From positions 124,001 through 188,000 of the forward strand of contig JAMCYM010000002.1 of the NCBI GenBank assembly GCA_023473665.1: DNA of 64,000 bases, read 5' to 3'. The notes under the pieces are model-generated. The model ran no database searches and was not told the origin of the DNA. It saw only the letters and a program-made list of their open reading frames with translations. Both the position numbers and the translations under genes were made by a program. The stretch is from Candidatus Marsarchaeota archaeon. GTDB taxonomy: Archaea > Micrarchaeota > Micrarchaeia > Micrarchaeales > Micrarchaeaceae. This document shows, piece by piece, positions 12,784-36,954 of this stretch. Numbering within the stretch: position 1 is the first letter of the stretch; each line of letters begins with the position of its first letter.

Positions 12784-12809
12784 GCCATCAGGCTATCATG
12801 TACGCCAGA

Positions 12810-12822
12810 CTATTAAATATTA
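12810..12822. promoter_or_regulatory. symmetric TATA box shared by hydrolase and giant surface protein
   Basis: CTATTAAATATTA reads TAATATTTAATAG on the other strand. The centre near 12816 is 33 bases from ATG 12783 (minus) and 32 from ATG 12848 (plus), leaving leaders of only about 5-8 bases. Confidence 0.55.
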
Positions 12823-12847
12823 TTGCACCCAACTATATACCGGTACG

Positions 12848-19710: not shown

Positions 19711-20427
19711 TCAGACAATCTTCTTCAGCACAGCGTCGGCCAGAGCCGCTCCCGCGGCCAGCTCCGGCATGACGAGCTTGTAGGTGCCCGCCCTGCTGAG
19801 CTTCGGCATGTTCTCCTGCGCCGCGAGCTTAGATATTATTCTTACGCCGCTGTTGGTCGCCTTTGCGGCTATGGAGATCAGCGTGTTCTCGAGATCCTTA
19901 TCGCTGCACGCCACAACGTACTTTGCGTTCGCAATGCCCGCGGCATCAAGCATCTCTGTGGAGTCTGGATTGCCTGCTATTGCAAGCACGCCCTCGCGGT
20001 TGAGCCTCGCTGCTGACTTCTGGTCCCTGGTGATGACTACGCACCTTGCTTCCGAGCCTTTGAACCTATCGACAAGCGTCTGCGCGAACGCATTGTATGG
20101 GGCTATTATGGTGTGGCCCCTAAGCGCCCTTATCCTTTTCAGCACCCTTCGCTCGTGCATGCCCGATCCGCGCAGTGCATCGTAGAAAACTGATGCGAGC
20201 AGCACAGTGATAAGTGCGAACACGAAGACATCGAGTAGGTTAGCGACAAGCACGAAGATGTTGCCTGCGCTCTGCTCCGGCAGCGTGTAGAAGACTATGC
20301 TTAGCGAGCCCAGCGTATTCCAAACAAGAGCGTCGGCGAAGCCTACGCCTCCGATGACGGTGAGCGCTACCGCCACTGCGAAGAACAACGCTGCGGAATA
20401 ACCTATTATCGCGATGCGCCTGTCCAT
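19711..20427 (-). CDS. RCK/TrkA-N-type channel-like membrane protein, subunit C
   Basis: A 238-residue protein with two hydrophobic helices (ALFFAVAVALTVIGGVG and VLVANLLDVFVFALITVLLASV) flanking a pore-like segment, then a TrkA-N Rossmann domain. Between the helices I see VWNTLGSLSIVFYTLP, not the potassium filter TVGYG. The dinucleotide loop reads APYNAFAQTL in place of GxGxxG, while the downstream acidic strand RCVVITRD and AGNPDSTEML follow the family. ATG 20427 overlaps the upstream stop region; a TTG at 20436 is the alternative. Third gene of a minus-strand operon. Confidence 0.65.
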   Translation of the reverse strand: MDRRIAIIGYSAALFFAVAVALTVIGGVGFADALVWNTLGSLSIVFYTLPEQSAGNIFVLVANLLDVFVFALITVLLASVFYDALRGSGMHERRVLKRIRALRGHTIIAPYNAFAQTLVDRFKGSEARCVVITRDQKSAARLNREGVLAIAGNPDSTEMLDAAGIANAKYVVACSDKDLENTLISIAAKATNSGVRIISKLAAQENMPKLSRAGTYKLVMPELAAGAALADAVLKKIV

Positions 20428-20428
20428 A

Positions 20429-21202
20429 TCACCCAACCTCTTTGGCTATCCTGCCGCCGATCTCCAGGCCGGTGAGCACCTCAGGCACGACGCATAGCGC
20501 CGCGCCGGCCCTGTGCATCTTGGAAACGCTCGATTCGTCCTTGGCCCTCGATACTATCTTCACGCGGTCATTGAGATGATGCGCCGCCACTATGCCAAGC
20601 AGGTTTTCGAAGTCGCTTTCGGTGCTGAAGACTGCAGCTTTGGCCTTGCCTATTGCGGCCTCCTTGAGCGTCGCCTCGTCGGTGAAATCGCCGCTGACCA
20701 CATTGTAGCCTCGTTCTATCACCATCTCGCTTATCGTGTTATCCTTCTCCACGACAACAAACGGCACTGAATGCTTTGCCAGCATCGCGCACAGCTCATC
20801 GGCCAATGCGTTGTAGCCGCATACCAGAGTGCCGCCCTTCATGCCCCTTACCCTGATTGATACGAGCCTGGCGCGTATATTAAGATTGGCCATGAGCTCT
20901 ATCACTCCTGCTATCACGAAGCCTATGACTGCTATCTTTATCACGCCGTCCGCTATCAGCAGCGGCAGCAGCAGGTAGAAATTGCTGCTGAACAGCCCAG
21001 CCGTCGCGAATATCGCGCTTGACGAATCTACTCCAACAGCATCGAACAGCGTGGTTTCGACGAAGTAGCCAGAAGGATATGCTCCCCCGGATATCTTGTC
21101 TACAACGATGGCTGTGGCAGCCGCTGCGCTGATCAGCACGAATATGAGAAGCGCAAGGTACACGACCGGCACGCCCTCCAGCCTGTTCCCTAGCTCAGCC
21201 AT
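20429..21202 (-). CDS. RCK/TrkA-N-type channel-like membrane protein, subunit B
   Basis: A 257-residue paralog of the downstream gene: first helix YLALLIFVLISAAAATAIVV, a loop ETTLFDAVGVDSSSAIFATAG, second helix region ending in IGFVIAGVIELM, then a TrkA-N domain (TLVCGYNALADEL, VVEKDN, VVSGDFTDEATL). The loop resembles a channel pore region in position but has no GYG. The nucleotide loop GYNALA parallels PYNAFA of the neighbour. It starts 9 bp after the soluble RCK gene ends. Confidence 0.65.
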   Translation of the reverse strand: MAELGNRLEGVPVVYLALLIFVLISAAAATAIVVDKISGGAYPSGYFVETTLFDAVGVDSSSAIFATAGLFSSNFYLLLPLLIADGVIKIAVIGFVIAGVIELMANLNIRARLVSIRVRGMKGGTLVCGYNALADELCAMLAKHSVPFVVVEKDNTISEMVIERGYNVVSGDFTDEATLKEAAIGKAKAAVFSTESDFENLLGIVAAHHLNDRVKIVSRAKDESSVSKMHRAGAALCVVPEVLTGLEIGGRIAKEVG

Positions 21203-21211
21203 TTTTCCGCC

Positions 21212-21700
21212 TTACTTTGTAATCTCGCCGAATATCTCCTCGCTGGCGCTCTTCTGCGGCGTGGCTATGTAGTCCGCTCCGGCCTCGAGCATCTTCTCCC
21301 GCACCATCGCGTCGTTGGCCCTCGTCGCTATGAATATGTTTTTGTTGAGGTCTCTTGCCGTCAGCACCGCGAAGAGGTTCTTCGCATCGTTGTCCATGAC
21401 TATGGCTATCGCTTTCGCTGTAGCTATCGAAGCCATGCGCAGCACGCGCGATGCGGTTGCGTCGCCTGCTATGACCCTGTAGTCGAGCTCGCGTATGTGC
21501 TCTACTACCTGCGGCATTATCTCGATTATCACGAATGGTATGCCGTGCTCCTCCAGCACTTCAACCACCTTCTGCCCAACCACTCCGAAGCCGCAGACTA
21601 TGACATGCCCTTCCAGTTTGTCCTGTGCCTGAGCCAAGAGAACACCGATACGGTCGTCAAGGAGTCTTGTATGATGCAATCTATAAATATTGCCCTGCAT
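21212..21700 (-). CDS. soluble TrkA-N/RCK domain protein
   Basis: NAD(H)-binding regulatory domain of potassium channels and transporters without a membrane part. The canonical Rossmann loop VIVCGFGVVGQKV is followed by IPFVIIEIMPQ and the acidic IAGDATASRVL. ATG 21700 gives 162 residues; a TTG at 21637 gives 142 residues beginning MAQAQDKLEGHVIVCG, which is where family members usually begin and suits the TATA element at 21681-21688. It heads the three-gene operon and probably gates the two membrane subunits. Confidence 0.75.
   Translation of the reverse strand: MQGNIYRLHHTRLLDDRIGVLLAQAQDKLEGHVIVCGFGVVGQKVVEVLEEHGIPFVIIEIMPQVVEHIRELDYRVIAGDATASRVLRMASIATAKAIAIVMDNDAKNLFAVLTARDLNKNIFIATRANDAMVREKMLEAGADYIATPQKSASEEIFGEITK
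21681..21688. promoter_or_regulatory. TATA box, possibly bidirectional
   Basis: CTATAAAT is about 32 bases upstream of GTG 21717 on the plus strand. On the minus strand it would start transcription near 21659, which fits the RCK gene only if that gene begins at TTG 21637. Confidence 0.45.
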
Positions 21701-21716
21701 GTATAGAGCCTGAGCC

Positions 21717-22115
21717 GTGGCGGTACAAATGGAAGATGCTGAGCTCGAAGCCTTGGTAAGGAATATAGTAAAGCTTTCTAAGGAGCTGAAGGACAAGTAT
21801 ACCAAAGCTGCATCTGCACCCGTGAACTATGCGTGCGTGTTCTCTCACAGCAAAGTGGAATACGATGGATTGATCGAGGCTGCAGGCAAAATCGGCAAGG
21901 TGATAGACAATACGTCGACGGGCCCAGTTTTCCTGATTAAGCCCATAGAAACAGTGGCCGGCAGGCTGAAGCTGCTCAAGATACGCATCCCGGATCCTAC
22001 GCGGCCTGAGAGGGGCGATGCGGATTTCTCCAACCGCCGCTCGATAGGCAGCTGGGAATTTAGCCCCACCCAGATTCGAACTGGGGTTTACAGGTCCAGA
22101 GCCTGCCGTCCTTGA
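21717..22115 (+). CDS. conserved-looking hypothetical protein, C-terminus probably truncated by tRNA-Gln
   Basis: Residues 1-104 read as a real protein (VNYACVFSHSKVEYDG, TSTGPVFLIKPIETVAG, LLKIRIPDPTRPERGDADF). The RIPDPTRPERGDADF element resembles archaeal uncharacterised proteins that, as I remember them, continue for several tens of residues. Here the frame instead runs about 30 unrelated residues, the last 18 of them antisense to tRNA-Gln (22062-22133). Start is GTG 21717 or ATG 21729. It is either a 3'-truncated gene or a shortened functional one. No function is assigned. Confidence 0.55.
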   Translation: MAVQMEDAELEALVRNIVKLSKELKDKYTKAASAPVNYACVFSHSKVEYDGLIEAAGKIGKVIDNTSTGPVFLIKPIETVAGRLKLLKIRIPDPTRPERGDADFSNRRSIGSWEFSPTQIRTGVYRSRACRP

Positions 22116-22970: not shown

Positions 22971-24269
22971 ATGGCCAAAAACGCTCAAACCCCGGAAGCG
23001 AAGACCACCATCGACTCTATGGTAGAACTATTGAAGGCCAAAGGAAGAATGGACCTCAACAGCATATCGATGGCCCTTAGCCTTGCGCCCAGCGTGGTGG
23101 AAGGCTGGGCAAAGGTGCTTGAATCAGGAGGAATCATAAAGATAACCTATGAAGTTGGGCGCATGTACATCGAGCTGGCCGGCACTGCCCCTGGGCAATC
23201 CACAGCACGCACTTCTGAGTTCAACGCCAAGCTTGATACCCTCAAGAGTAATATCAACACCGAGAGCATCGGCCTTGAAGGTCTTTCGGAATATGTGCAG
23301 AATGTGAGTGCAAATGCCGCAAACGCCATTGGGACGCTCGGCAAGTCGGCGCCCGAGCTGGAGAAGGAGCTGTCCGAACTGAACAGGATCAGGTCGCAGA
23401 TAACAAACTATGGCGCAGAAATGGCAAATGCCGTGCGCTCTGTTGATGAATCGTATACCCAGATTAGCAAGAAGTTCGACGATTTCGTGCCGAAGTATAA
23501 CGATTTCATGTCAAAAATCGCTGCGCAGCCACAGCCAAGCGCGATAGGCGACGATATGCTGAAGCGCGCCAAGGACTCGCTCGCCGCGCTCGACCAGATA
23601 AGGAAAAGCAAGGATGCGATGATTGACGGAATGAAACGCGAGATGGACGGGCAGGTGAAGGGCGTGTACTCGGCGCTCGATGCTGCTAGCAGGCAGATAA
23701 ACGACACGATAAAGCAGTCAAAAGACAGCATAGAGCAAGGGCTCAGGCAGATCGAAGAGAATGCAAAAGCCAGCAGGGCGATGCTCAAGGAGGCGCAGAA
23801 TCTATCTGGAGAGGGCATGCAGCTGCTGAAGAAGCTCGAGCAGGACAGGACGCAGTTCAACGACAGGTATGCGAAGATATCGAAGGAAATGAAGGACACA
23901 TATTCGACGTTCCAGGAAAAGTATTCTGCGCTTTCCGGCAAGGTAGAGGAGATGGACTCCAAGTACAGCAACGCAGGCGAGCTCAGCAGTGCGCTTGCCG
24001 ACCTGAAAGCAAAGAGCGATCAGGCTAAGTCTGACATTGCGTCGCTCAAGGAGCAGCTTGCAACGCTTCAGCAGCAGGCTGCCGCACTTGGCACGCTCAA
24101 GGATACGCCGCTGGACAAGCGCGAATCCATACTTAGTGCATTGTCAAACAAGGAGGCAGACATAAAGCATAAGGTCGACGCTACGAGAAGCGCGGTCAAG
24201 GGCGCGGATCAAGAGCTTGGCAAGAAGGTTAAGGGCAAGAAGGGTGGCAAGAATGGCGGAGCAACCTGA
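22971..24269 (+). CDS. winged-helix plus long coiled-coil protein heading the pilus operon
   Basis: Unnamed 432-residue protein. Residues about 10-70 look like a winged helix (MVELLKAKGRMDLNSISMAL, VVEGWAKVLESGGII), with YEVGRMYIEL as the wing. Residues 90-405 are almost entirely coiled coil with long Lys/Glu/Gln/Ala heptads, and the tail is basic (KKVKGKKGGKNGG). It overlaps the ATPase gene by 17 bp, so the two are translationally coupled. It may be a cytoplasmic scaffold or a regulator of the secretion ATPase; both are inference. Confidence 0.6.
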   Translation: MAKNAQTPEAKTTIDSMVELLKAKGRMDLNSISMALSLAPSVVEGWAKVLESGGIIKITYEVGRMYIELAGTAPGQSTARTSEFNAKLDTLKSNINTESIGLEGLSEYVQNVSANAANAIGTLGKSAPELEKELSELNRIRSQITNYGAEMANAVRSVDESYTQISKKFDDFVPKYNDFMSKIAAQPQPSAIGDDMLKRAKDSLAALDQIRKSKDAMIDGMKREMDGQVKGVYSALDAASRQINDTIKQSKDSIEQGLRQIEENAKASRAMLKEAQNLSGEGMQLLKKLEQDRTQFNDRYAKISKEMKDTYSTFQEKYSALSGKVEEMDSKYSNAGELSSALADLKAKSDQAKSDIASLKEQLATLQQQAAALGTLKDTPLDKRESILSALSNKEADIKHKVDATRSAVKGADQELGKKVKGKKGGKNGGAT

Positions 24270-25767
24270 CCAGACAGCTGCAGATCCGGTGCTGGCCGAG
24301 TACGACCTGAATGCGCACGGAATGAACGTGCACGTCAGGATACACAGCCCACCTTTGGAATTCGTGCCGGTATACGATGTTACATTCACGGGCGTGAGCA
24401 ACGCGACGCGCCTGCTGCTGCTCTCGTTCAGGAGAGAGCTCGTCTCCATGGTGCCGATTGACCCGACCAGAATAGAGAACCAGAGCTATGTAGACACGCT
24501 CAATGGAAGGTACGTGCAGTCCAGCGGAGTTCTGATAGACAAGTACCTGCCCGGTACCTCTGCTGACACCAAAGCGCTGCTCACCGCATACATACTGAAC
24601 ATGATGCTGGGCTTGGGCGACCTGGAGGTGCCGTTGGCTGACGACAACCTCGAGGAAGTTGCAGTTAACGGCTCAAGCAGCCCCATATGGGTCTTCCACA
24701 AGGCCATCGGATGGTGCAAGACCAACATGAAGCCTTCAAGCGAGGACTTCATATACGACCAGGCCGAGCAGATCGGGCGCAGGATAGGCCGCGAGCTGAA
24801 CAACCTATCACCGCTCATGGACGCGGAGCTGGTCGACGGCTCGAGGGTCAACGCCACGCTTTTCCCGATATCGCAGTTCGGCAACACGATAACGATCAGG
24901 AAGTTCGCCAAGAACCCCTGGACGATGCCTGCCCTAATAAAGAACGGCACCATAAGCCTCGAAGAAGCGGCGCTCATGTGGCTGTGCATACAGAACGAGG
25001 TCAGCATGCTCATATCAGGCGGCACAGCGTCCGGCAAGACGAGCTTCCTCAACGCGGCTAGCATATTCTTCCCGCCATCGAGGAGAGTAGTTTCTGTAGA
25101 AGAAACGAGGGAGCTTACCCTCCCGGACTCGCTGCAGTGGGTGTCGATGTCTACGCGCCAGCCTAACCCCGAGGGCAAGGGCGAGGTAACGCTATACGAC
25201 CTTATGATAAATGCGTTGAGGCAGAGGCCCGACATAATGCTTGTAGGAGAGGTAAGAATAGCGAAGGACGCAGAGACGTTCTTCGAGGCCATCCACACAG
25301 GCCATGCCGTGTACGGCACTGTGCACGCCGACAATGCCGAAGATACAGTGGTAAGGATGATAAACCCGCCTATCAACACGCCAAAGGTGCAGATGAACTC
25401 GCTCGGCGCGATAGTGAGCCTGTTCAGGCACAGGGGCAAGGGGATAAGGCGCACCCTCGAGTTCGGCGAGATGCTGAGCTCAGGCGACATAAACGTGCTG
25501 TACAGGTGGAACATGCGCGACGACACTTTCCCGCGAATAGGGGATATGACAAGGCTGGCTGAGATACTCTCGCTCTACGGCGGGCTCTCTAAGCAGGACA
25601 TAGAGACAGAAATAAAGGAGCGCTCCATGATACTGGACTGGATGGTCAGAAACAACGTTATTGGCGTGAACGACTCAGGTTTCGTGATCGCCAACTACTA
25701 CAAGAACAAGAACAAGGTGATAGACGTGGCGAGGAGCAATGTTCCGTTCTCGAGGGACGTACTGTGA
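24253..25767 (+). CDS. type II/IV secretion ATPase, FlaI/TadA family
   Basis: Hexameric ATPase that drives assembly of type IV pili or archaella, 504 residues. Walker A GGTASGKT is at about 256-263, the Asp box follows (VVSVEETREL), Walker B is RPDIMLVGEVR and the His box is AVYGTVHADNAEDTV. ATG 24253 is chosen because GGGTGG precedes it; the open frame upstream lies inside the previous gene. It is followed by an unknown protein and two platform proteins, the usual minimal archaeal pilus set. Confidence 0.93.
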   Translation: MAEQPDQTAADPVLAEYDLNAHGMNVHVRIHSPPLEFVPVYDVTFTGVSNATRLLLLSFRRELVSMVPIDPTRIENQSYVDTLNGRYVQSSGVLIDKYLPGTSADTKALLTAYILNMMLGLGDLEVPLADDNLEEVAVNGSSSPIWVFHKAIGWCKTNMKPSSEDFIYDQAEQIGRRIGRELNNLSPLMDAELVDGSRVNATLFPISQFGNTITIRKFAKNPWTMPALIKNGTISLEEAALMWLCIQNEVSMLISGGTASGKTSFLNAASIFFPPSRRVVSVEETRELTLPDSLQWVSMSTRQPNPEGKGEVTLYDLMINALRQRPDIMLVGEVRIAKDAETFFEAIHTGHAVYGTVHADNAEDTVVRMINPPINTPKVQMNSLGAIVSLFRHRGKGIRRTLEFGEMLSSGDINVLYRWNMRDDTFPRIGDMTRLAEILSLYGGLSKQDIETEIKERSMILDWMVRNNVIGVNDSGFVIANYYKNKNKVIDVARSNVPFSRDVL

Positions 25768-25785
25768 GCTGGCAACGGTGCAACC

Positions 25786-26502
25786 ATGGCTGACTACGCG
25801 GCGAACAGCTACAGGTCGCTGGTCGAGCTGATAGGTTCGGTGGAAAACAGCTCGCAGAAAGAGGACGTCGATTTCGTTGATATGTCTGCTGGGCTGGGAC
25901 CAAAGGGGCGCGGCGAAGTCCAGGGCTCGTACGTTGACGCCATGGAGACGATAAGCAGGATCGAGTCGGAGCGCGGGTTTGAGCCTAGGCGCCGCGCGCA
26001 AGCAGCGCAGCCCCATCTCGCCATGTCAGGAGTGCAGCAGGCGGCTACATCGCAGGCCGTGCCTGCTCCTCAAGAGCAGGTCCAGAAACCAAAAACGCAG
26101 CCCCAGCCTGCCAAGCCGCAGGAGTTCGCCGAGCCTGCCATAAAGGCGCAGGCAGAGCAGGAAGCCAAGCAATTGACGTCTGAGCTGCACCTGCAGAAGG
26201 TCAAGATCAACATAAGGCGCATAAACCTGAAGGAGCTCGTGCTTCCCGGCCTGTCGATGGCCGACCAGATATCGGAGCTGGAGCGCATAATCGAAGGTAT
26301 ACGCGGAAACGCATTCGACCAGGAGCACATGGCCATAGTCGTTGAAGAGGTGTACGGCCTGCAGAAACATCTCGTCATGCAGGAAAAGGAGCAGAAGCGC
26401 AAGCACATAGAGCCAAGCGCGCTTGAGCAGTCGCTCATAGCGTTGCGCGAGCAGCGGCTCAACGATGCCATATTGGAACTGAAGCAGCGCGGTGTTGTGT
26501 GA
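25786..26502 (+). CDS. unknown protein of the pilus operon
   Basis: A 238-residue soluble protein with no domain I recognise. The N-terminal third is polar, the middle (about 80-125) is a Pro/Gln/Ala-rich linker (PQPAKPQEF), and the C-terminal half is helical and charged (LHLQKVKINIRRINLKEL, ELERIIEGIRGN, EQRLNDAILELKQRG). Its stop overlaps the next ATG (TGATG). Position between ATPase and platform genes suggests a cytoplasmic assembly factor (inference). Confidence 0.6.
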   Translation: MADYAANSYRSLVELIGSVENSSQKEDVDFVDMSAGLGPKGRGEVQGSYVDAMETISRIESERGFEPRRRAQAAQPHLAMSGVQQAATSQAVPAPQEQVQKPKTQPQPAKPQEFAEPAIKAQAEQEAKQLTSELHLQKVKINIRRINLKELVLPGLSMADQISELERIIEGIRGNAFDQEHMAIVVEEVYGLQKHLVMQEKEQKRKHIEPSALEQSLIALREQRLNDAILELKQRGVV

Positions 26503-27680
26503 TGTTCGGCAAGAAGCAGAGGATAGTTAACGTCGGCGGACAGCCCATCGCCCTCGAGCCTAAGCCCAGGAAGGGCATACTTGGCCTGTTTGGCAAAGGA
26601 AAGCATCGGCAACCTGCTGCTCCCGCGCCTGCAGCCCCCATCCAAACGCCGCAGCAGGCTCCAGCACAGCAACCGCAGCCTAAGTCTCAGACGTGGTACG
26701 ATTCAACGAAAATGCAGGTGCAATCGCCATCACAAACTTCAACTCCAGTAAATGTCCCGACGCCATCGCAGGTGCTCGCGCCGAAATCTGCAAGCCACGG
26801 CCTATTCGGGCGCGCCAAGCCAGGCGCCGCGCGCCAGGTCAGGCAGGGGAGGTGGCACACATACATAGAGAGCATAGGCTCCAAACAGACGGGCCTGGAG
26901 ATGGTGCTGAAGGAGCAGCACATCAACGAGAGCCTCTACTCGTTCGTGCAGCGCATGGTGTTCACCTCGATGATACTTGCTGCAGTAATAGCAATTACTG
27001 TCTTCGCGCTCTTCCTCCACATAGGCATCAGGGAGATAGCGGCAGCCATACTCGGCATAATGCTGGGAGTCGCGATATTCTACGGCTTCCTGCGCTCGTT
27101 CCTCAACTTCCCCAAGCGCAGGGCTGTGACTAGCGCGAAGCTCATAGAGCGCGACATACTGTTCTCTGCCAGGGACCTGATAATAGCGCTCCGCTCCGGC
27201 ATGCCCCTATTCAACGCCCTGATATCGGTGAGCACCGGCTACGGCGAGTCAAGCAAGGAGTTCTCCCGCATAGTGGAGCGCGTCCAGGTCGGCATGCCTC
27301 TCGAGCAGGCCATAGACGAGGCGCTGGCTGAAACCAAGAGCCCCTCGTTCAGGCGGATCATGCTGCAGGCTTCAGTAAGCATAAAAGCTGGCGCCGATGT
27401 AGTTGCAGCGCTGCAGAGCGTAATAGACCAGCTCTCGCAGGAGCGCGTCATAGAATTGCGCAGGTACGGCCAGCGGCTCAACGCAATAGCAATGTTCTAC
27501 ATGCTCTTCGGCATAATACTGCCCAGCATGGGAGTCGCTGTGCTCACAATACTCACGACGTTCATAGCTCTGTTCACTGTCACGCCCACGCTGCTGGAAG
27601 GCGCGCTTGTGGGCATAGCTTTCCTGCAGATAGTGTTCCTGCAGCTCATAAGGACATCAAGGCCGACATTCACAATGTGA
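26502..27680 (+). CDS. pilus platform membrane protein, TadC/FlaJ-like (1)
   Basis: A 392-residue T2SSF-domain protein. The first 110 residues are a polar Pro/Gln/Lys-rich cytoplasmic extension. Membrane helices follow (MILAAVIAITVFALFLHI, IAAAILGIMLGVAIFYGFL), then the cytoplasmic T2SSF loop (ALRSGMPLFNALISVSTGYG, VGMPLEQAIDEAL) and two C-terminal helices. It anchors the ATPase at the membrane. The N-terminal extension is unusual in length. Confidence 0.85.
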   Translation: MFGKKQRIVNVGGQPIALEPKPRKGILGLFGKGKHRQPAAPAPAAPIQTPQQAPAQQPQPKSQTWYDSTKMQVQSPSQTSTPVNVPTPSQVLAPKSASHGLFGRAKPGAARQVRQGRWHTYIESIGSKQTGLEMVLKEQHINESLYSFVQRMVFTSMILAAVIAITVFALFLHIGIREIAAAILGIMLGVAIFYGFLRSFLNFPKRRAVTSAKLIERDILFSARDLIIALRSGMPLFNALISVSTGYGESSKEFSRIVERVQVGMPLEQAIDEALAETKSPSFRRIMLQASVSIKAGADVVAALQSVIDQLSQERVIELRRYGQRLNAIAMFYMLFGIILPSMGVAVLTILTTFIALFTVTPTLLEGALVGIAFLQIVFLQLIRTSRPTFTM

Positions 27681-27684
27681 TACG

Positions 27685-28674
27685 ATGAAGATAAACTTCG
27701 AACGATTGGTTTCGCGAAATGTCGCGAGGTACCTCTCACGCCTGCTAGACCTGGCTGGCTCAAAGATGAGCGTTCAGCGCCTTCTCCGCATGGTAATACC
27801 AAGCTTCTTCGTGCTGTTCATCGGCGTATCGATATTCCTTTATGCGATACATATAGGCGTACTCGCCTCAGCGATCATCGGCCTGATAGCCGGCCTTTCC
27901 ATAATACTCGTCGTATACCTGATCCTGAACTACATGATAGACAAGAGGAAGTCCGCGGTCGAGCAAATCCTGCCGGATTACTTCCAGATCACATCCGCCA
28001 ATCTGCGCAGCGGAATAGCCCTCGACCGCTCCATGCTCCTCGCGGCAAGACCGGAGTTCACGTTCTTCTCGGAAGACGTGCTCGAGATGAACAGGAAGGT
28101 ATTCGGCGGCGAGACCTTCGAGGCCGCGCTCCAGGAACTGGGCAACAAGTACAGGTCGATAGCGCTGCAGCACGCGATAAAGATGATGATCGAGGCGCAG
28201 CGCTACGGCGGCGCTATGGCCGACCTGATGGACCAGCTCTCGAAGGACCTTCGCAACCAGCAGATAGTCCAGAAAGAGGTATCTGGGCAGCTCTTCATGT
28301 ACAGCATCTTCATAGCCTTCGCAGGGCTCATCGCAGCGCCAGTGCTCTACGGCCTGACGAGCCAGATGATTGTGGTGACGAACACCGTCTGGAAGGGCAT
28401 ACTCGCCTCTAACCCGGGCGGGCTTCCGACTACTGGCGTATCGTTCCTGAAGCCAAGCCCGCCCAAGATAAGCACATCATTCTACCGCGACTTCGCACTC
28501 GTCTCAATAGCACTGGTAACTGGCTTCGCTGCCCTGATCATGAGCACGATATCGTCAGGCTCCACCGTGCGGGGCATACGGCTCGTGCCCGCATTCATAC
28601 TAATTGGCCTGGCCATATACTTTGTGGTAGGGTCGTTTATCGGATCGCTCTTCAGCAGCATAGGCGGCGTGTAA
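27685..28674 (+). CDS. pilus platform membrane protein, TadC/FlaJ-like (2)
   Basis: A second T2SSF protein, 329 residues: two N-terminal helices, then LPDYFQITSANLRSGIALDRS and the GGETFEAALQELG region, and further helices to the C-terminus. It starts 4 bp after the first platform gene. Two platform proteins per ATPase is the Tad/Eap-like arrangement. It ends 7 bp from the convergent LamG operon. Confidence 0.85.
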   Translation: MKINFERLVSRNVARYLSRLLDLAGSKMSVQRLLRMVIPSFFVLFIGVSIFLYAIHIGVLASAIIGLIAGLSIILVVYLILNYMIDKRKSAVEQILPDYFQITSANLRSGIALDRSMLLAARPEFTFFSEDVLEMNRKVFGGETFEAALQELGNKYRSIALQHAIKMMIEAQRYGGAMADLMDQLSKDLRNQQIVQKEVSGQLFMYSIFIAFAGLIAAPVLYGLTSQMIVVTNTVWKGILASNPGGLPTTGVSFLKPSPPKISTSFYRDFALVSIALVTGFAALIMSTISSGSTVRGIRLVPAFILIGLAIYFVVGSFIGSLFSSIGGV

Positions 28675-28681
28675 AAAAGAC

Positions 28682-31600
28682 TCACGGCGGAGTATAGCTA
28701 GGTCCGCACTGCCCGTTCACCACCTGGCTGTTTGTGCATGCGGCGCCGTTGCCATAAAGATATCCTGTGTTTCCATGCACTATGTCAGACGTCTCGTTCA
28801 GCAGCCCGTTCATTCCAGCGCCGAGCGGCCAGTAATCAACCGGGGTTACACCTTGCACGCTGTTGTTGAGATACAGCTGCTGCACCTGCGCTGAACTAAG
28901 CGCCGAGCTGTAGAGCTGGACGTCTGCGACACTGCCGTTGAAGAAATATCCGTTCGTCTGGATTGCACCGATAAGCATCGAGCTGCCTGTTATCGCAGGC
29001 GTGGCTGTTGTGCTTACCTTCTGTACGCCGTCAACGTATACTATGAGGCTGCCGGCCGTGCCTCCTCCAAACGTAAGAGTCACGAAATGCCATCCCCCGC
29101 TCGTAATTCCACTGCCTAAGTTGGTCCCATAAAGCCCGCCGCCTATCGAGTTGCTTGTGCCTGTCTGGGCTGTTGTCACATAGCCGATATAAGCAGATTC
29201 CCCGCTAGATGGGGATCCGATGGCGAACGCACCGCCATAGTTGGACATAGATTGCGCATAGACCCAAGCAGATAAAGTAAAGGCGCCGCTACCAGAAATC
29301 GGATTTCCTGATGCGCCCACGTAGTCGCTCACCCCATTGAAGCTCATCGCGTCAGGCAGCGCAGCCCCAATCATGTCGAGCGCTGTGGTCTCGTTCATGA
29401 AGCCCCTGCCGGCATGCTCCAGCGGCAACGGATTTAGGTAGAGGTGCTGCAGGGTGGTGTTGCTGCACTGGTTCAGGCTACCGCAGTTCAGCACACCCTC
29501 GACAAGGTTTGCGGTGGGGCTGTTCGGCAGCGGGCTGTATATGACGTTGGTCGGGATGCCGTTGTTGCCCTTGCCAGAATAGTCATTGGCGTTGCCGCTT
29601 AGCGGCCACCATCCAACAAGCCCGGCGTTGCTTATGGGACCACCATTTATGCCGTCTTGGTAAAGCTGCGAAACCTGTGCGACACTTAAACCCGTGTTAT
29701 AGACTTGGACATCTGCCAAAGTGCCATTATAGGTGCGGCCAGCAGTATCGTTTCCCATAAGGAGGTTACCGGTTGGAGTGACCGGCAAAGATTCAGGTGG
29801 TGAGGTATAAGCTACATTACCATTGGCATACAATGTGTAAATCACATTGCTGGTGCCGCTTGCGGTGGAGACTAAAACTGTATTGTACAGTTTATTGGTG
29901 CTAAAGGGGTATAAGGTGCATATCCACCTAACACCTGACTCAAGTATTGCGAACTGCCCGGCCGGGCAGCCTGTGTTGGTGCCTCCGGTGTATATACCAT
30001 ATCCATTGGTACCTCCATTGCTGCCTAACAGCGCTATCACCTGCCCAGTGGTCTCGATGGGTGTTGAGAACCAAGCGGAGATGGTTGTACCTGTAACGCC
30101 GTTTGATGGCAAAGGTGTGCTGATGCTGCTCGCCCCATTGAACTGCGCTGCTTTGCTCGTCGGTATACCGGGCACGTGGCTTGAGAGCGAGTCGAATGTA
30201 TATCCGCCCGGGGCAGCATAAATAACATTTGTGGCTACTCCATTGTTGCTCTGCCCGCTGAAGTCTGTCGCGTTGCCGCCGAGAGGCCACCATCCTGTCA
30301 AAACCGAATTACTTGCAGGGGTGCCAGATATACCTTCATGGTAAAGCTGTGCTATCTGCGCAGGTTGCAGTGCTGCATTGTAGACCTGCACATCAGCTAT
30401 TGAACCATCCCAGAAACTGTTGCTACCCCGTGTGCCGTTGCCTATGTAAATTCCATTAAAACCCACAGATGCAGTAGAAACAGTATTGGAAAGAAACACT
30501 CCATCATCGTAGACTTTTGCGACGCTTCCATTGTAAGTCAATGTAACATACTGCCATGCATCCTTTGCGAACGGATTGCTGTTGAACGTCTGTATTCCAG
30601 AGCCTAGCCACACATTCAAACCATTATATCCTTGTCCTATATTTACTCCAAAAAACAACGTCTGACCGGATTGTTCATCAACAATCATTGGATAGGCGCC
30701 TGCACCTTGAAGCAGGAAGACCCAAGCCGAAATAGTGAATGGCGAATTGGCAGGTATATTGCTTGGTGCTTCAATGTAGCTGCTCGCGCCGTTGAACTGC
30801 GCCGCCTTTGTATTCAGCGTCGAGAAGGTGTAGAAGCCGTTGGACGATGAGCCGAAAAGATCATTCTGCGACCTCTGCAGGTACGAGGGCATGTAGGGCG
30901 ACGCATAGGCGTAGCCCGACTGCACCGCCTGCTGCAACGGTGTCGTGTTGAGGAGCGCGAGCCTCTGGCCTGCAAGCAGCAGGCTAAGCGAACCCTGCAG
31001 GTAGCTCATTATTGAAGAGTTCGCGTAGAGCAGATAGGGCACAAGCGGCGTGCTTGCGTTTATCGTGTCGGTCACGAGGCCAGCCATGCCGCAGACGTTC
31101 TGCCCTATATTTGTAGCGTTAGGTGTAGCAAGTATGAAGTTGTTGTTCTTATAGCCTGAAGCTATCGAGCTGCAGTTCGGCTTTCCTGGATAGTAGACCA
31201 CTGTCCCGTATGCAAACATGTACGGTGAGGTGCTGCCAGCCTTCGCATATATATTGCCTACAACAGTTGCGTTCGGGCTTGTGGTTCCAGGCACTAGCAT
31301 GCTGTAGCTGCCTTGTTCTGCAGCGAGCAGGTATTGTCCGAAACCCGTCGAGACATTGGCCTGTGCGTCGATAAAGTAGCTTGATACTGTATTGCTCTGG
31401 TTTATCGTAAGCAATGCGGTATATGACGCGCCTATAGTGAACGCGCCGCTCTGGAACACGCTCAGCGTGCCGTTCGTTATGCTTACCGAAGCGCCCTGAC
31501 CTGCCGCCTGCTTTACCAGCATTGCTATGTACTGGCTGAGCGTTGTTCCCTCGTAGCTAGAAAGGCTGTAGCTATTGTAAGAGCCAGTATTCATTACCGT

Positions 31601-31915
31601 TGCCAAGGCAGCTGCAGTGTTGTTGATGAACGAGTCCTTCCTTACAGAAGGCGTAGACTCGTAGTACGTAAGCCCGGCAAGCGCTCCGCTCAGCGAAGAG
31701 TGCAGGAAAGTTGCCAAGCTAGCGTTAACGTTCTGCACTATGCTGCTAGTACCTGTTGCGCTGCTTACCTGCGTTTCGAGATTGCTGTAGTTTATGTTCA
31801 GCACGACGTAGGTGACGAGCTCGCTCAGCATGAGCACGAATAGCACTATGGTGAAGAGCGTCAACAGTATGCCCTTCCTGCCGACGAACAACGAATGCCT
31901 GCGTTTCAGTGCCAT
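28682..31915 (-). CDS. large surface protein with three LamG-like domains
   Basis: A 1077-residue protein with a short basic N-terminus (MALKRRHSLFVGRKG) and a hydrophobic helix ILLTLFTIVLFVLMLSELVT, so membrane-inserted or pilin-like. After about 330 residues of Ser/Asn/Thr-rich extracellular sequence come three LamG (concanavalin-like) domains. Each opens with (A)QFNGASS or MSFNGVSD, contains TISAWV/F and WYVTL-type strands, and closes with IADVQVYN...QLYHEGI plus GWWPLGGNATDFSG-type tails (the third is DYWPLG). Such domains bind glycans or proteins. Last gene of a four-gene operon, overlapping its predecessor by 10 bp. Confidence 0.78.
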   Translation of the reverse strand: MALKRRHSLFVGRKGILLTLFTIVLFVLMLSELVTYVVLNINYSNLETQVSSATGTSSIVQNVNASLATFLHSSLSGALAGLTYYESTPSVRKDSFINNTAAALATVMNTGSYNSYSLSSYEGTTLSQYIAMLVKQAAGQGASVSITNGTLSVFQSGAFTIGASYTALLTINQSNTVSSYFIDAQANVSTGFGQYLLAAEQGSYSMLVPGTTSPNATVVGNIYAKAGSTSPYMFAYGTVVYYPGKPNCSSIASGYKNNNFILATPNATNIGQNVCGMAGLVTDTINASTPLVPYLLYANSSIMSYLQGSLSLLLAGQRLALLNTTPLQQAVQSGYAYASPYMPSYLQRSQNDLFGSSSNGFYTFSTLNTKAAQFNGASSYIEAPSNIPANSPFTISAWVFLLQGAGAYPMIVDEQSGQTLFFGVNIGQGYNGLNVWLGSGIQTFNSNPFAKDAWQYVTLTYNGSVAKVYDDGVFLSNTVSTASVGFNGIYIGNGTRGSNSFWDGSIADVQVYNAALQPAQIAQLYHEGISGTPASNSVLTGWWPLGGNATDFSGQSNNGVATNVIYAAPGGYTFDSLSSHVPGIPTSKAAQFNGASSISTPLPSNGVTGTTISAWFSTPIETTGQVIALLGSNGGTNGYGIYTGGTNTGCPAGQFAILESGVRWICTLYPFSTNKLYNTVLVSTASGTSNVIYTLYANGNVAYTSPPESLPVTPTGNLLMGNDTAGRTYNGTLADVQVYNTGLSVAQVSQLYQDGINGGPISNAGLVGWWPLSGNANDYSGKGNNGIPTNVIYSPLPNSPTANLVEGVLNCGSLNQCSNTTLQHLYLNPLPLEHAGRGFMNETTALDMIGAALPDAMSFNGVSDYVGASGNPISGSGAFTLSAWVYAQSMSNYGGAFAIGSPSSGESAYIGYVTTAQTGTSNSIGGGLYGTNLGSGITSGGWHFVTLTFGGGTAGSLIVYVDGVQKVSTTATPAITGSSMLIGAIQTNGYFFNGSVADVQLYSSALSSAQVQQLYLNNSVQGVTPVDYWPLGAGMNGLLNETSDIVHGNTGYLYGNGAACTNSQVVNGQCGPSYTPP

Positions 31916-33699
31916 ACAACAACACTCACATTGTAAAGCTTACTTGTGCCTCCAGCATTTAATAGCATGGGCGCCGATGCCTTGCTTACCGAATATGCGT
32001 TCTGGAGCCCGGGCGGCATAGGACCCTGTTGCGTGTATTGCACGGAAATTGAGGTGCCTTCATTGCCATTGCCACTGTAATCGTTCGCATTGCCGTCAAG
32101 CGGCCACCACCCGATCAGCTTCGCATTGCTTACCGGAATCGCAGCAATGCCTTGCTGGTAGAGCTGCGATATCTGCGTGGCTGACAGCGAGCTGTTGTAT
32201 ATCTGTACGTCAGCTATCTCGCCTGTGAACAATGAGTTTGCAGTTCCAGGAGCCCCACGGGCGCCTATTCTGAGTGCAAGGCCTGTGTTGCCAACCCCCC
32301 CAGTTGCAGGATACGGTGTTGCCTTGGCTGTATTGAGGTACGCTATTACTGCGCTGCCATTGTATGTCAGCGCAACCTGACTCCATTTGTCTGCCGGCAC
32401 GTACAGCGATGGGCATATCCATGTCCATCTTGGAGATGTGGTGTTCAGCGCCCAGCACAGCTGGCCTGTTGATGAAAGCGCCCATTCGTAAGAGTTTTCC
32501 TTGTTGAATATGATGCAGCCTTGCGACCCACAGCCCGATAAGCTGCTTGGATTGAGCCAGGCGTAGAACGTCAGCTGCGTCCCTACGCTAAGATCAGGAG
32601 TGTTGTTGACTTGAACGTAGCTGCTCGCGCCGTTGAACTGCGCGATGTCCATTGCGGGCGCATATTCGTTGTTTATGAAAATCGCCGAATCGCTGGTGTT
32701 GTAGAGGTTCTTGAAGAGCATGTCAGCAACTGCTGACTGGTTGTTCAGGTAAAGCTCAGAAAGCGCATGCAGCATGCTCTCGTTCGAAGTAAAGTTGTAG
32801 CCCCACAGCTGGGTCGTTCCGGTCTGGACGAACGTGGTGTAAGTTGTTTGGCCGTTAACAGTGCCTGCATAATCGTTAGCATTGCCGTCAAGCGGCCACC
32901 ACCCGAGCAGATCGTAGCTGTTGAGCGGGCTGCCATCAATGCCCTCGGCATACAGTGCGTTGGCCGCGTTGGCTCCTAATGCATATCCATACACCTGTAC
33001 ATCAGCTATACCTCCAGAGATAGGGTTGCAGCCGCTGCTTGATGTAGGATTCGTGCCGCTTATTGTCGTGCCGTTGTACAATATGCTCCCTGTGGCAGCC
33101 ATAGGGCTGCCTATCCTTTTGCCATTAAGATAGACTATAAGGTAGGTACCATTGTATGCTCCTATAAGCTGCTGCCATTGATTTGGTATAAGATGTGCGC
33201 CAGGAGAATTTTGGAAGTTGCTGCCTCCTGTGTTCTTTATACCCCACAATTCGGTCGGTGGGCTGGCCCCCGCCTCTAGGTAGAAATAGTAGCTGTCGCC
33301 GCATCCCTTGCTCCCTGAAAGTGCGTTCTCCCAATAGTTTCCAGACGCTCCCCATAGGCTGTTATTGGTTGGGTATACCCAGAATGACACAGTTATATTG
33401 TTGGTGTACTGCGGGGTTGTGACGGCCTTTATGTAGCCAGCAGGAGCCTGCAGGAAGTTTGCGTAACCGAAAGGCACGGCCGGACTGTATCCTGCCTGCA
33501 CCTCGGTAATGCTACCTCCCTGCGCCACCTGCCCGAAAGTGGTGCGCAGCATGCTCTGGAGAAGTCCCTGCGCAAGCGTCGACGGCGCCTGAAAGCTCTG
33601 CGGTGCGCTGAACTGCATGTAAAGCAGTATAGATACAGCTGCAGTTGCCACTATAAGCGAAAAAATAGCATCGACCGTGAATATGAAACCTTTCATCAT
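31906..33699 (-). CDS. pilin-like surface protein with two LamG-like domains
   Basis: A 597-residue protein with an N-terminal MMKGFIFTVDAIFSLIVATA, a pilin/pseudopilin-like start. Two LamG domains follow, marked by NITVSFWVYP and QLTFYAWLNP strands and by GWWPLDGNANDYAG and GWWPLDGNANDYSG tails. CGDSYYFYLEAGAS and SGCGSQGCIIFNK supply cysteines. Its ATG overlaps the upstream stop by 4 bp (ATGA). It should be exported and displayed by the pilus machinery encoded by the convergent operon (inference). Confidence 0.75.
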   Translation of the reverse strand: MMKGFIFTVDAIFSLIVATAAVSILLYMQFSAPQSFQAPSTLAQGLLQSMLRTTFGQVAQGGSITEVQAGYSPAVPFGYANFLQAPAGYIKAVTTPQYTNNITVSFWVYPTNNSLWGASGNYWENALSGSKGCGDSYYFYLEAGASPPTELWGIKNTGGSNFQNSPGAHLIPNQWQQLIGAYNGTYLIVYLNGKRIGSPMAATGSILYNGTTISGTNPTSSSGCNPISGGIADVQVYGYALGANAANALYAEGIDGSPLNSYDLLGWWPLDGNANDYAGTVNGQTTYTTFVQTGTTQLWGYNFTSNESMLHALSELYLNNQSAVADMLFKNLYNTSDSAIFINNEYAPAMDIAQFNGASSYVQVNNTPDLSVGTQLTFYAWLNPSSLSGCGSQGCIIFNKENSYEWALSSTGQLCWALNTTSPRWTWICPSLYVPADKWSQVALTYNGSAVIAYLNTAKATPYPATGGVGNTGLALRIGARGAPGTANSLFTGEIADVQIYNSSLSATQISQLYQQGIAAIPVSNAKLIGWWPLDGNANDYSGNGNEGTSISVQYTQQGPMPPGLQNAYSVSKASAPMLLNAGGTSKLYNVSVVVWH

Positions 33700-34244
33700 C
33701 CAACACCAAATGGCTGGCTTGTCCAGATATCTACCTGCACCGCAACAGGCACGCCTCCCAGGAATGCATGCCCTGTGCTCGTGTATGTCGTTAGTGCACC
33801 ATTAGTTTCTGGATTTTCGCCTATTGTTATGTTGAGGCTGCCGCCCCTTATGGTTATGAAATATTCGTAGCCTACGCCAAGCACCTGCTTGCTCTGCTGA
33901 TAGCCTGCAGGGGTGCTTGCCATTGCTGCCAGCGCGTACACCTTGGCAGGAGAGAGCACCGTGGAGCCAGAGCTGTTAGCCAGGCCAACTCCTATTCCCT
34001 GCCAGGTGCTCTCGTTGCTCGTGTTGATCTCTGAGTTCCAGTAGCTCGGCGAGCCTGGCGTGAGCAGCGTGCTCGCAAGGCTCTGCTGCTCTATCTGCAT
34101 TATCGTTGCGCCGTTGCCGTAAGAAAGCGAAAGCTGGCTGTTCACGTCATACCACGTATAGGTAAGAAGGGTCAGCGCCACGCTGAATATGACTATAGCG
34201 AAGATGACGTCGAAGCTCCAGAACTGCGCTTTCATGTTCATCAT
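33696..34244 (-). CDS. small pilin-like protein of the LamG operon
   Basis: A 182-residue protein starting MMNMKAQFWSFDVIFAIVIFSVALTLL, a pilin-like hydrophobic N-helix, followed by a small extracellular domain with several sequons (NTSNEST, NSSGST, NITIGE) and no LamG module. It is the only normal-sized pilin-like protein of the set and may be the backbone subunit (inference). One base separates it from the upstream gene. Confidence 0.7.
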   Translation of the reverse strand: MMNMKAQFWSFDVIFAIVIFSVALTLLTYTWYDVNSQLSLSYGNGATIMQIEQQSLASTLLTPGSPSYWNSEINTSNESTWQGIGVGLANSSGSTVLSPAKVYALAAMASTPAGYQQSKQVLGVGYEYFITIRGGSLNITIGENPETNGALTTYTSTGHAFLGGVPVAVQVDIWTSQPFGVG

Positions 34245-34245
34245 A

Positions 34246-36954
34246 TCAGCTCAGCGATACGTTTACCTTTGCGTAGAGCGGCAATCCCTGCGCGTAGAGC
34301 TGCTGCACCTGCTGCTGTGTAAGCGATGTGTTGTAAACCTGTATACCCGCAATCTTTCCATTGAAATAATACGGCGTTCCACCGCAACTGGTGTCCGAGC
34401 ATTTACCAATATCGGCCGGATCAGAGGCGGGAAGAGTTGTAGATAGCGATAAACCAGTTGCAACTGTCTGTGGTACGCCATCTATGTATGCAGTCACAGT
34501 GCCTGAGGTATATGTGTAACCAACTAAATACCATTTTTTCGGTGCCAGCGTCGATGTAGTACAATAGTTCGGTCCGTAGTTCGAGAAGCACACGACTCCG
34601 CCACTTCCAAGATGGAGTGACGACCATTCATTACTTATGGTGCTTCCGTAGGAATATATTATTTCAAAGGTCGATGGAACTGAAGGGGTTTCTACCCATG
34701 CAAAAACAGATCTTGCTGAGTTTCCGGTAGGCAAGTTGGTATCTCCAGTAGATATATACCCAGAGTTGCTGAGGTTTGCGACCGGAATATCCTGTAGCGA
34801 TGAAGAGACGGTCTGCATATTGCTATACGTGACACTGGTCGCAGTGCCACCGTTTGCATATATTGAATAATCATTGGCATTGCCGTCAAGCGGCCACCAT
34901 CCCACAAGCCCGGTATTGCTGAGCGGCATGGCAGTGATGCCTGCTGAATATTGCTGCGCTATCTGCTGGGCCGTGAGCGATGTGTTGTAGACCTGCACGT
35001 TCGATATTATGCCGTTCCAGTCATCGAAGCCGGCCAGGTTGCCTATCCTGAACAGCTTTGATGGGATATAATAGATCAGCTGGGAATCGGGCACGCTGCC
35101 GCTGAGCTTGCCGTTTATGAATATGCTCGCATTGGTGCCATTGTAAGTGCCAACCACATAGTACCATTTGCCGAGCTGCAACGGAGTGCTGTTGGTGCGA
35201 ACGGCTACTGTGCTGTTGTACGTGCCGAACGTCATCTCCCCTATGGAGTTGCCAGTCATTGAAAGGTAGTACGAGCCATCGCTAGCTGTCGCCTGCACTC
35301 CAGCCACGAACATCCATGGCGTGTCAGAATTGGCCTCGACCCAAGCACCCACAGTAAGGTGCGTTGGCTTGAGCACGGGGCTGCTGCTCACGTTTATGTA
35401 GCTCCCTAGCGTACCAGTATAGGTCCCAGCGCCCTGGCCGTTGAACTCCGCTGCCTGGAATGCGGATGTGTTCGCAAACGGCGCCCAAGACGGGCTCACG
35501 AACGTGCCATTATTTCCATTGCCGCTCATGTCGTGTGCCACGCTGCCATAGCCTTCGTCAAGCGGCCACCATCCAACAAGATGCGACTGCAGGCTGTTCG
35601 CCGAGCTGAAGGCGTTGATTGTCACGTTGGCCATGCCTATGGGCGAGTTAGACGTCACGAACACGGTTGCATTTCCAGCAGGGTCGGTAACAGATGATAA
35701 ATCTGATGTGTTGCTCGTAACGCTAAGAGAGCCAAAGCTCGGAGCAGCCCCAATCAGAGTGTTTGTGCTATCTGCTGCGCTGCCCGTGCTGGCATGCACA
35801 TTCACCTGTGCCACGTTGCTGTAATTCACGTAATTTGGCACGCCATTATTTCCATTGCCGCTGTAGTCGTTCGCGTTGCCGTCAAGAGGCCACCACCCCA
35901 CCAGTCCTGCATTGCTTATCGGCGTTCCGGATATGCCCTCCTGGTAAAGCTGCGAAACCTGCGCCTGCGAGAGTGCGGTACTGTAAATTTGTACGTTAGC
36001 GATAGATCCGTTGAAATATCTATCCCACCTGCCTATCCCATTCATGTCAGGAAGCCCTATACACCCTATATAATTTGCGCCACCTGGATAATCGACTCCA
36101 TTTATATATCCTGTGGGGTGACCATTGCTCAGTACAAGTGCGGTAAATATCCATCTACCTTTAAAGGACTGAGACACACCCCATGAATTTCCCGTCGATG
36201 TGTTTCTTAGTTCAAATCTAAGTGAGCCATCGTTATACTCAATGTCATCCCAACCACCGCCGTAAAGGCCTACAACACCTCCTTCGGATCCTGACGATAC
36301 CATTCCAGAATCATACGACCACGCTGCTAGGGTTACATTACACATGACATTGTTTGAAAATGGAGAAGGGGGGATCACTACGCTGCTCTGCCCATTGAAC
36401 TGCGCCGCTTTCGTTTCAGCTATGACTTCTGTGCTGAGCTGCCTGGCGTATGTTGCAGGATTCGGTGGCTGTGCGTCTATGTAAACCACTCCATTTTCGT
36501 TTGCCACCTTGAGCAATCCTGTATATGCCGGCACGCTGTAAACCGTTATGCCGTTGTACGCGCTTGAGATGGTGCCGTTTATCAGCAGGTTTCTTGCAGA
36601 GCTGTACGCTATGGCTGTGATCAACGTCTTGCCCACAGTCTCGTTCGCTATCACTGCTCCGTCAGATGTTATGAACAGGTTGTATGGCTGGAGCGAGCTT
36701 GCCACAGGCATGCTCAGCGTGGCGTTGTAGCCGCTCCCTGCCACGAGCGCCTGGTCTATGTAGCTGGATATGTCCTGCGCCACGAGCTGCATCGATGCGT
36801 ATTGCTGCGCATTGAGCGTCGTGGATCTCTGCAAGGCGACGAGCCCGAACAGCACAAGGAACAATACAAGCACGAACGAGTATACTATTATGAACTCGAA
36901 GGCGATCTGGCCCTTGCTCCGTCGCCCCCTGGCCTGCCCCAGCATCAAATCCAT
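34246..36954 (-). CDS. class III signal pilin-like protein with three LamG-like domains
   Basis: A 902-residue protein. The N-terminus RRSKGQIAFEFIIVYSFVLV is a textbook archaeal class III signal (basic stretch, QIAFEF, hydrophobic helix), expected to be cut by an FlaK/EppA-type peptidase. About 150 residues of spacer lead into three LamG domains with AQFNGQSS, AEFNGQGA-type openings and GWWPLDGNANDYSG tails. First gene of the operon. A TATA element (CTTTATTATG, 36976-36985) lies about 26 bases upstream of the ATG. Confidence 0.8.
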   Translation of the reverse strand: MDLMLGQARGRRSKGQIAFEFIIVYSFVLVLFLVLFGLVALQRSTTLNAQQYASMQLVAQDISSYIDQALVAGSGYNATLSMPVASSLQPYNLFITSDGAVIANETVGKTLITAIAYSSARNLLINGTISSAYNGITVYSVPAYTGLLKVANENGVVYIDAQPPNPATYARQLSTEVIAETKAAQFNGQSSVVIPPSPFSNNVMCNVTLAAWSYDSGMVSSGSEGGVVGLYGGGWDDIEYNDGSLRFELRNTSTGNSWGVSQSFKGRWIFTALVLSNGHPTGYINGVDYPGGANYIGCIGLPDMNGIGRWDRYFNGSIANVQIYSTALSQAQVSQLYQEGISGTPISNAGLVGWWPLDGNANDYSGNGNNGVPNYVNYSNVAQVNVHASTGSAADSTNTLIGAAPSFGSLSVTSNTSDLSSVTDPAGNATVFVTSNSPIGMANVTINAFSSANSLQSHLVGWWPLDEGYGSVAHDMSGNGNNGTFVSPSWAPFANTSAFQAAEFNGQGAGTYTGTLGSYINVSSSPVLKPTHLTVGAWVEANSDTPWMFVAGVQATASDGSYYLSMTGNSIGEMTFGTYNSTVAVRTNSTPLQLGKWYYVVGTYNGTNASIFINGKLSGSVPDSQLIYYIPSKLFRIGNLAGFDDWNGIISNVQVYNTSLTAQQIAQQYSAGITAMPLSNTGLVGWWPLDGNANDYSIYANGGTATSVTYSNMQTVSSSLQDIPVANLSNSGYISTGDTNLPTGNSARSVFAWVETPSVPSTFEIIYSYGSTISNEWSSLHLGSGGVVCFSNYGPNYCTTSTLAPKKWYLVGYTYTSGTVTAYIDGVPQTVATGLSLSTTLPASDPADIGKCSDTSCGGTPYYFNGKIAGIQVYNTSLTQQQVQQLYAQGLPLYAKVNVSLS

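Follow-up and report, generated by a model that had tools for sequence, protein, structure and literature searches.

The described systems closest to the locus analysed here are archaeal type IV pili (T4P). Those of Methanococci, Methanothermobacteria and Thermococci that use two TadC proteins combine these with one VirB11-type ATPase and several minor pilins, and large adhesins have been proposed to sit at the pilus tip (Makarova et al. 2016, PMC4858521). For Mia14 (Ca. Mancarchaeum acidiphilum), two T4P loci and an expanded set of LamG proteins, some of them T4P-linked, were reported and a role in host interaction was proposed (Golyshina et al. 2017, PMC5498576); in excerpts of that paper, within the open-licence literature, we found no description of LamG proteins as prepilins, of a four-pilin set, of its order-wide conservation or of LamG-free relatives. 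We analysed a window of 64,000 nucleotides from a Candidatus Marsarchaeota archaeon (assembly GCA_023473665.1, 779 kb on three contigs, with a completeness of 96%; contig JAMCYM010000002.1, positions 124,001 to 188,000, forward strand). At 22971-36954 of this window, nine open reading frames (ORFs) form a block of five plus-strand genes facing four minus-strand genes. On our best reading, the block probably encodes a T4P on which LamG adhesin domains are displayed by the minor pilins, whose complex likely sits at the tip.

The four minus-strand genes are labelled here pilA to pilD, numbered outward from TadC2, so that pilD is the first gene of its operon (Table 1). A sequence-only reading of the window had proposed that a FlaI/TadA ATPase, two TadC platforms and two accessory proteins converge, across a 7-bp gap, on four proteins with pilin-type N-termini, three of which (597-1077 residues) carry seven or eight LamG domains. 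The ORFs lie where that reading had placed them, the ATPase and the platforms match T2SSE and T2SSF, respectively, and all four N-termini carry conserved, family-specific motifs at a predicted cleavage site. The LamG count is exactly eight (LamG_3 by Pfam: 3+2+0+3 in pilA, pilB, pilC and pilD); a ninth LamG domain of the genome belongs to a stand-alone gene outside the block.

In sequence searches of the PDB, the ATPase matched an archaeal type II secretion system (T2SS) ATPase (2oap, 1e-61), FlaI (4ii7, 5e-52) and CpaF structures. It scored 233 bits against an NCBIfam cut-off of 550 for the FlaI equivalog and is thus not a FlaI equivalog, on which ground membership of an archaellum was rejected. 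TadC2 showed 61% mean column identity across 24 genomes; in the phylum sample, 92 of the 96 good genomes had it, those outside the order at lower scores. Together with prepilin signals and a prepilin peptidase gene, the VirB11/FlaI-superfamily ATPase and the two TadC/FlaJ platforms (T2SSF) are parts that group the block with archaeal T4P; the assembled filament is our proposal.

Table 1. Features of the pilus block, in window coordinates; ^ marks the predicted cleavage site.
Feature	Position	Strand	Product	Pfam match	LamG domains (aa)	N-terminus
coil	22971..24269	+	432-aa cytosolic coiled-coil protein; opens the machinery operon			
ATPase	24259..25767	+	assembly ATPase, FlaI/CpaF/TadA (VirB11-like) superfamily	T2SSE 7e-32		
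acc2	25786..26502	+	238-aa protein, conserved in position across the 40 relatives read			
TadC1	26499..27680	+	membrane platform	T2SSF 4e-16		
TadC2	27685..28674	+	membrane platform	T2SSF 5e-13		
gap	28675..28681		7 bp between TadC2 and pilA			
pilA	28682..31915	-	1077-aa prepilin-like protein	LamG_3 3e-52	376-521, 598-749, 861-1012	...GRKG^ILLTLFTIVLF
pilB	31906..33699	-	597-aa prepilin-like protein	LamG_3 1e-37	88-243, 357-511	MKG^FIFTVDAIFSL
pilC	33696..34244	-	182-aa pilin without LamG			MKA^QFWSFDVIFAIVIF (alignment of 21 to 27 orthologues)
pilD	34246..36954	-	902-aa prepilin-like protein	LamG_3 4e-51	188-334, 517-665, 730-884	RRSKG^QIAFEFIIVYS

In each family a hydrophobic helix follows the predicted cleavage site, and each of the four has a motif of its own. 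For pilD this is [KR][GASL]^Q-I-A-L-[ED]-[FY] (70/73 sequences; typically [KR][GAS]^QIALEF), for pilC [KR][AGL]^Q-F-W-S-F-D (73/82; K[AG]^QFWSFD), for pilB K[GA]^F-I-F-T-x-D (69/78; KG^FIFTLDA) and for pilA [KR][GA]^(I/V/Q)-L-x-T-L (77/81; [KR]G^ILLTL); some genomes are counted twice because the two sequence sets overlap, and the misses that were inspected were mostly wrong ORF starts. These are predicted class III prepilin signals, as found in archaeal T4P systems. One Peptidase_A24 (PF01478) gene scored over the cut-off in the genome, at C2:302099. Conserved prepilin peptidase sites, a check that the sequence-only reading had named, are therefore predicted for all four families, and the genome holds the peptidase gene.

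Structure prediction by AlphaFold2 gave for pilC (pLDDT, predicted local distance difference test score, 89) one helix (residues 6-60) and, after it, a small four-stranded alpha/beta domain. For pilD (pLDDT 74), a helix at 14-72 starting from the predicted cleavage site is followed by a beta domain to about residue 187, which completes the pilin domain (residues 16-187), and then by jelly rolls. With Foldseek, the jelly rolls matched best laminin LG, neurexin LNS and pentraxin PTX3 domains, and further sialidase lectin domains and a putative Bacteroides carbohydrate-binding protein. Pfam scores over the gathering threshold and the jelly-roll fold both assign these domains to LamG_3 and the ConA-like lectin fold; a sequence search of the PDB with pilB gave no match. 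The fold matches span protein-binding and sugar-binding members. In pilB, the LamG domains are flanked by two conserved elements, an N-terminal helix and the C-terminal strand VSVVVW.

We read the block in two sets, 40 relatives and 80 named contigs, which share genomes and are not additive. The genome itself is placed in Ca. Micrarchaeota. TadC2 relatives in named genomes come nearly all from Candidatus Micrarchaeota metagenome-assembled genomes; the few labelled Marsarchaeota group within the same set. Both operons co-occur across relatives, a point that the sequence-only reading had left for checking: among the 53 contigs that extend 9 kb or more past TadC2, pilA-B-C-D were found in order and convergent on TadC2 in 40, partially in 7 and not at all in 6. 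The retention of four genes, their order and their convergence in 40/53 contigs argues that the arrangement is not due to chance. The gap between the operons ranges among relatives from an overlap to about 2.9 kb, and its length of 7 bp is therefore not special in itself. A close homologue of the ATPase occurs in about 87 of 99 relatives, and the pilC model matches 86 of the 96 good genomes of the class. Within the order, the two are associated in their presence: both were found in 67 genomes, the ATPase only in 12, pilC only in 1 and neither in 3 (Fisher p=0.018, a test that takes no account of phylogeny or of incomplete assemblies). The four-gene pilin set and its machinery thus appear to be conserved as a unit across the whole order. 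A separate observation concerns G047 (88% complete, 4 contigs), in which the ATPase, TadC2, pilC and any LamG are absent; this natural loss is of interest for comparing lifestyles.

The pilC model still matches most genomes of the class outside the order, and the pilins of sister families, read at several loci, are mostly short and LamG-free. In G103, a pilD of 186 aa, a pilC of 213 aa, a pilB of 172 aa and a pilA of 690 aa with one LamG domain converge on the same machinery; G127 has a pilD of 142 aa, a pilC of 170 aa and a pilB of 202 aa, and in G099 a pilC of 169 aa and a pilB of 187 aa were found together with a weak match to pilD. Of the pilD profile, the 186-aa version matches the first ~156 positions, which precede the first LamG domain. 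Because sister families keep the same four pilins mostly short and LamG-free, the simplest history would be that the giants derive from ordinary minor pilins of ~180 aa, with LamG domains grafted later onto three of the four ancestors. The reverse history, in which LamG was lost in the sister families, is possible. Other enlargements also happened, as shown by large LamG-free members such as the 554-aa pilB of G113. Within the order, mean pairwise identity is highest in the signal helices (39-49%) and lowest in the LamG domains (21-25%). The sequence itself shows which genes are present, their prepilin signals, the LamG folds and the conserved linkage, and it favours a later addition of LamG.

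LamG domains also occur on single pilins. The lone LamG protein of the genome (292 aa) starts with MKA^QSAMEYLMTYGWAIL, a PilA-type signal, and all lone LamG ORFs of ~300 aa that could be read in relatives start likewise (QSAMEYLMTYGWA); the approximately 150 best-scoring matches listed in relatives aligned from the cleavage site to the protein end. In G011, which is apparently Mia14 and carries the 5+4 block at about 146-159 kb, nine LamG pilin genes lie in tandem within 16 kb (L244:1304-17269), four of them in 1974-bp units that are 99.4-100% identical; this array is a recent tandem amplification. What seemed to be a 1220-aa fusion of pilA with pilB in G011 was dropped as an artefact of a masked N run. 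In DPANN genomes, LamG proteins tallied as 'secreted adhesins' may instead be pilins. The genome analysed here also has stand-alone PilA-type pilins at other sites, of 162-170 aa. Two larger proteins with PilA-type signals, of 703 aa (QSALEYLVTYGWA; C2:195943-198054) and 1889 aa (QSAVEYLVTYGWA; C2:229552-235221), were also seen, in which LamG was not detected.

From these data we infer filament assembly, tip position, ligand and a role in symbiosis as follows. The ATPase, the two TadC platforms and two cytosolic helpers would assemble prepilins that the single detected peptidase would have cleaved beforehand. The facing operon would supply a minor-pilin set, consisting of the plain, short pilC and of pilA, pilB and pilD, whose heads would each have gained one to four LamG domains. 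Together, the four pilins would probably form a priming or tip complex. As pilA lacks an acidic residue at +5/+6, it is a candidate for the outermost pilin by analogy with GspK. The shaft would probably consist of stand-alone PilA-type pilins, some with one LamG domain, and the LamG domains would serve as adhesive heads that bind a surface ligand of a partner cell, plausibly glycans. We did not take the giants to be the bulk filament subunit, since the genome has short PilA-type pilins at other sites and each giant derives from a single gene of the four-pilin set. Of the pilus displaying giant LamG pilins that the sequence-only reading had described, the T4P-family machine and the LamG prepilins thus hold as one conserved unit, but the giants are short pilins with LamG added and more likely minor or tip components than the bulk subunit.

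Several observations weigh against this picture. The predicted pilC structure had no Foldseek match in the PDB at E <= 0.001, only weak matches to ribosomal proteins, and its pilin fold is therefore argued from the long helix and the sheet. Leucine, atypical for class III signals, occupies position -1 of the predicted site in 18/70 pilD and 10/73 pilC sequences. In several contigs the operons lie apart or the pilin operon is absent; in G009, G020 and G057 it is whole and located elsewhere. LamG folds bind proteins and other ligands too, so that a glycan ligand is not implied. In a co-culture of Ca. Micrarchaeum harzensis, contact filaments were attributed to the host (Krause et al., PMC8975820).

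The same prepilins could instead be processed yet kept at the membrane or surface layer as anchored adhesins, a bindosome-like coat that the ATPase and TadC proteins merely arrange. In Sulfolobus, a bindosome is made up of sugar-binding proteins that bear class III signals; the block lacks a major pilin gene, large prepilins are multi-domain display proteins, and the bindosome ATPase BasE is among the NCBIfam matches of the ATPase, far under its cut-off. Every intact block, however, keeps a plain short pilin, sister-family versions are mostly pilin-sized, and stand-alone PilA-type pilins are present in the genome; we regard membrane anchoring as unlikely. The four pilins could also form the short piston of a pseudopilus for secretion or DNA import, with LamG binding the substrate. 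Their likeness to the minor set GspHIJK, by analogy, and the DNA import proposed for undinarchaeal pili (PMC7414124) would fit, but the conserved block includes no channel or nuclease/uptake partner. LamG is moreover the most variable part and lone LamG pilins are tandemly multiplied, which fits surface recognition better; we regard a piston as highly improbable.

For a T4P with LamG-bearing minor pilins, adhesion is the most economical reading, from which glycan binding and attachment to a host would follow by inference. Pili of the host C. divulgatum bear N-glycans (PMC12448462), so that a glycan target is available, and thin filaments, possibly pili, have been reported on another DPANN symbiont, ARM-1 (PMC11329633). 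Alternatively, the same machine could bind the organism's own species or surface for aggregation or biofilm formation, differing in its target only. Sulfolobus UV pili recognise the glycans of their own species (PMC12448462), and the sequence gives no pointer to host over self; cultivated Micrarchaeota, on the other hand, are host-associated (PMC5498576, PMC8975820), which is still compatible with self-binding, and we rate self-recognition as a minor but real possibility. Tentatively, one may go further and envisage a host-recognition pilus with LamG heads grafted on an ancestral four-pilin tip complex and a shaft coated by a variable, tandemly amplified repertoire of LamG PilA-type pilins that sets the partner range. 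By what means DPANN archaea recognise their partners and hold on to them is still an open question. The block offers a specific candidate that is conserved order-wide, sits at a single locus and has defined adhesin heads, and it is a good candidate device for holding other cells. Because the block apparently occurs in the co-cultured Mia14, recombinant LamG heads could be tested on host cells.

Within the machinery operon, the ORF of the ATPase begins mechanically at 24217, and the annotated start is provisional. The coil protein, in the same position in the 40 relatives read, gave only non-specific coiled-coil Pfam matches under the cut-off; acc2 had no match in Pfam or NCBIfam and pilC none in Pfam. 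Scans for promoters and terminators stayed at chance level. A second pilus locus of the genome (C3:280301-286481) comprises an ATPase, two short hydrophobic ORFs that are TadB/TadC-like in look, small pilin-like ORFs (107-125 aa) and one of 432 aa. A third VirB11-like ATPase (C3:84958-86274), whose neighbours look by eye SRP receptor- and prefoldin-like, was not counted as a pilus system, as no recognised TadC adjoins it, and is probably not one. Upstream of the block in the window, a 1949-aa protein (12530-18379, plus strand; start codon uncertain) that has a hydrophobic segment at its C-terminal side, probably a giant surface protein, is followed by a 399-aa lysine/glutamate-rich protein (18432-19631, plus strand); Pfam searches with both gave no match. 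At 19711-21805 (minus strand), two ORFs lie side by side, with membrane segments that precede a Rossmann-like region, and are followed by a third Rossmann-like ORF; by eye, they resemble TrkA-N potassium channel or transport proteins.

Among families with related parts, the TafC family fimbrial protein (NCBIfam NF052521, 373 positions) has a LamG-like C-terminal part that aligns to the LamG domains of the block. Only this part aligns, with 19-72 bits against a cut-off of 410, and TafC membership was rejected; we found no description of TafC in the open-licence literature. The T2SS minor pseudopilins GspH-I-J-K likewise have four members, one of them large and without the usual acidic residue, with insertions into the pilin core. 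This likeness is one of analogy alone, and GspK carries no LamG. The tip adhesins proposed for the two-TadC archaeal pili carry DUF2341; at E 0.1 none of the four pilin-like proteins matched it, and they were accordingly not placed among PilY-like tip adhesins. Compared with the systems described in PMC4858521, it is here the minor pilins that carry the adhesin domains, and their operon is convergent; the locus would document how ordinary minor pilins turn into giant display proteins through domain grafting.

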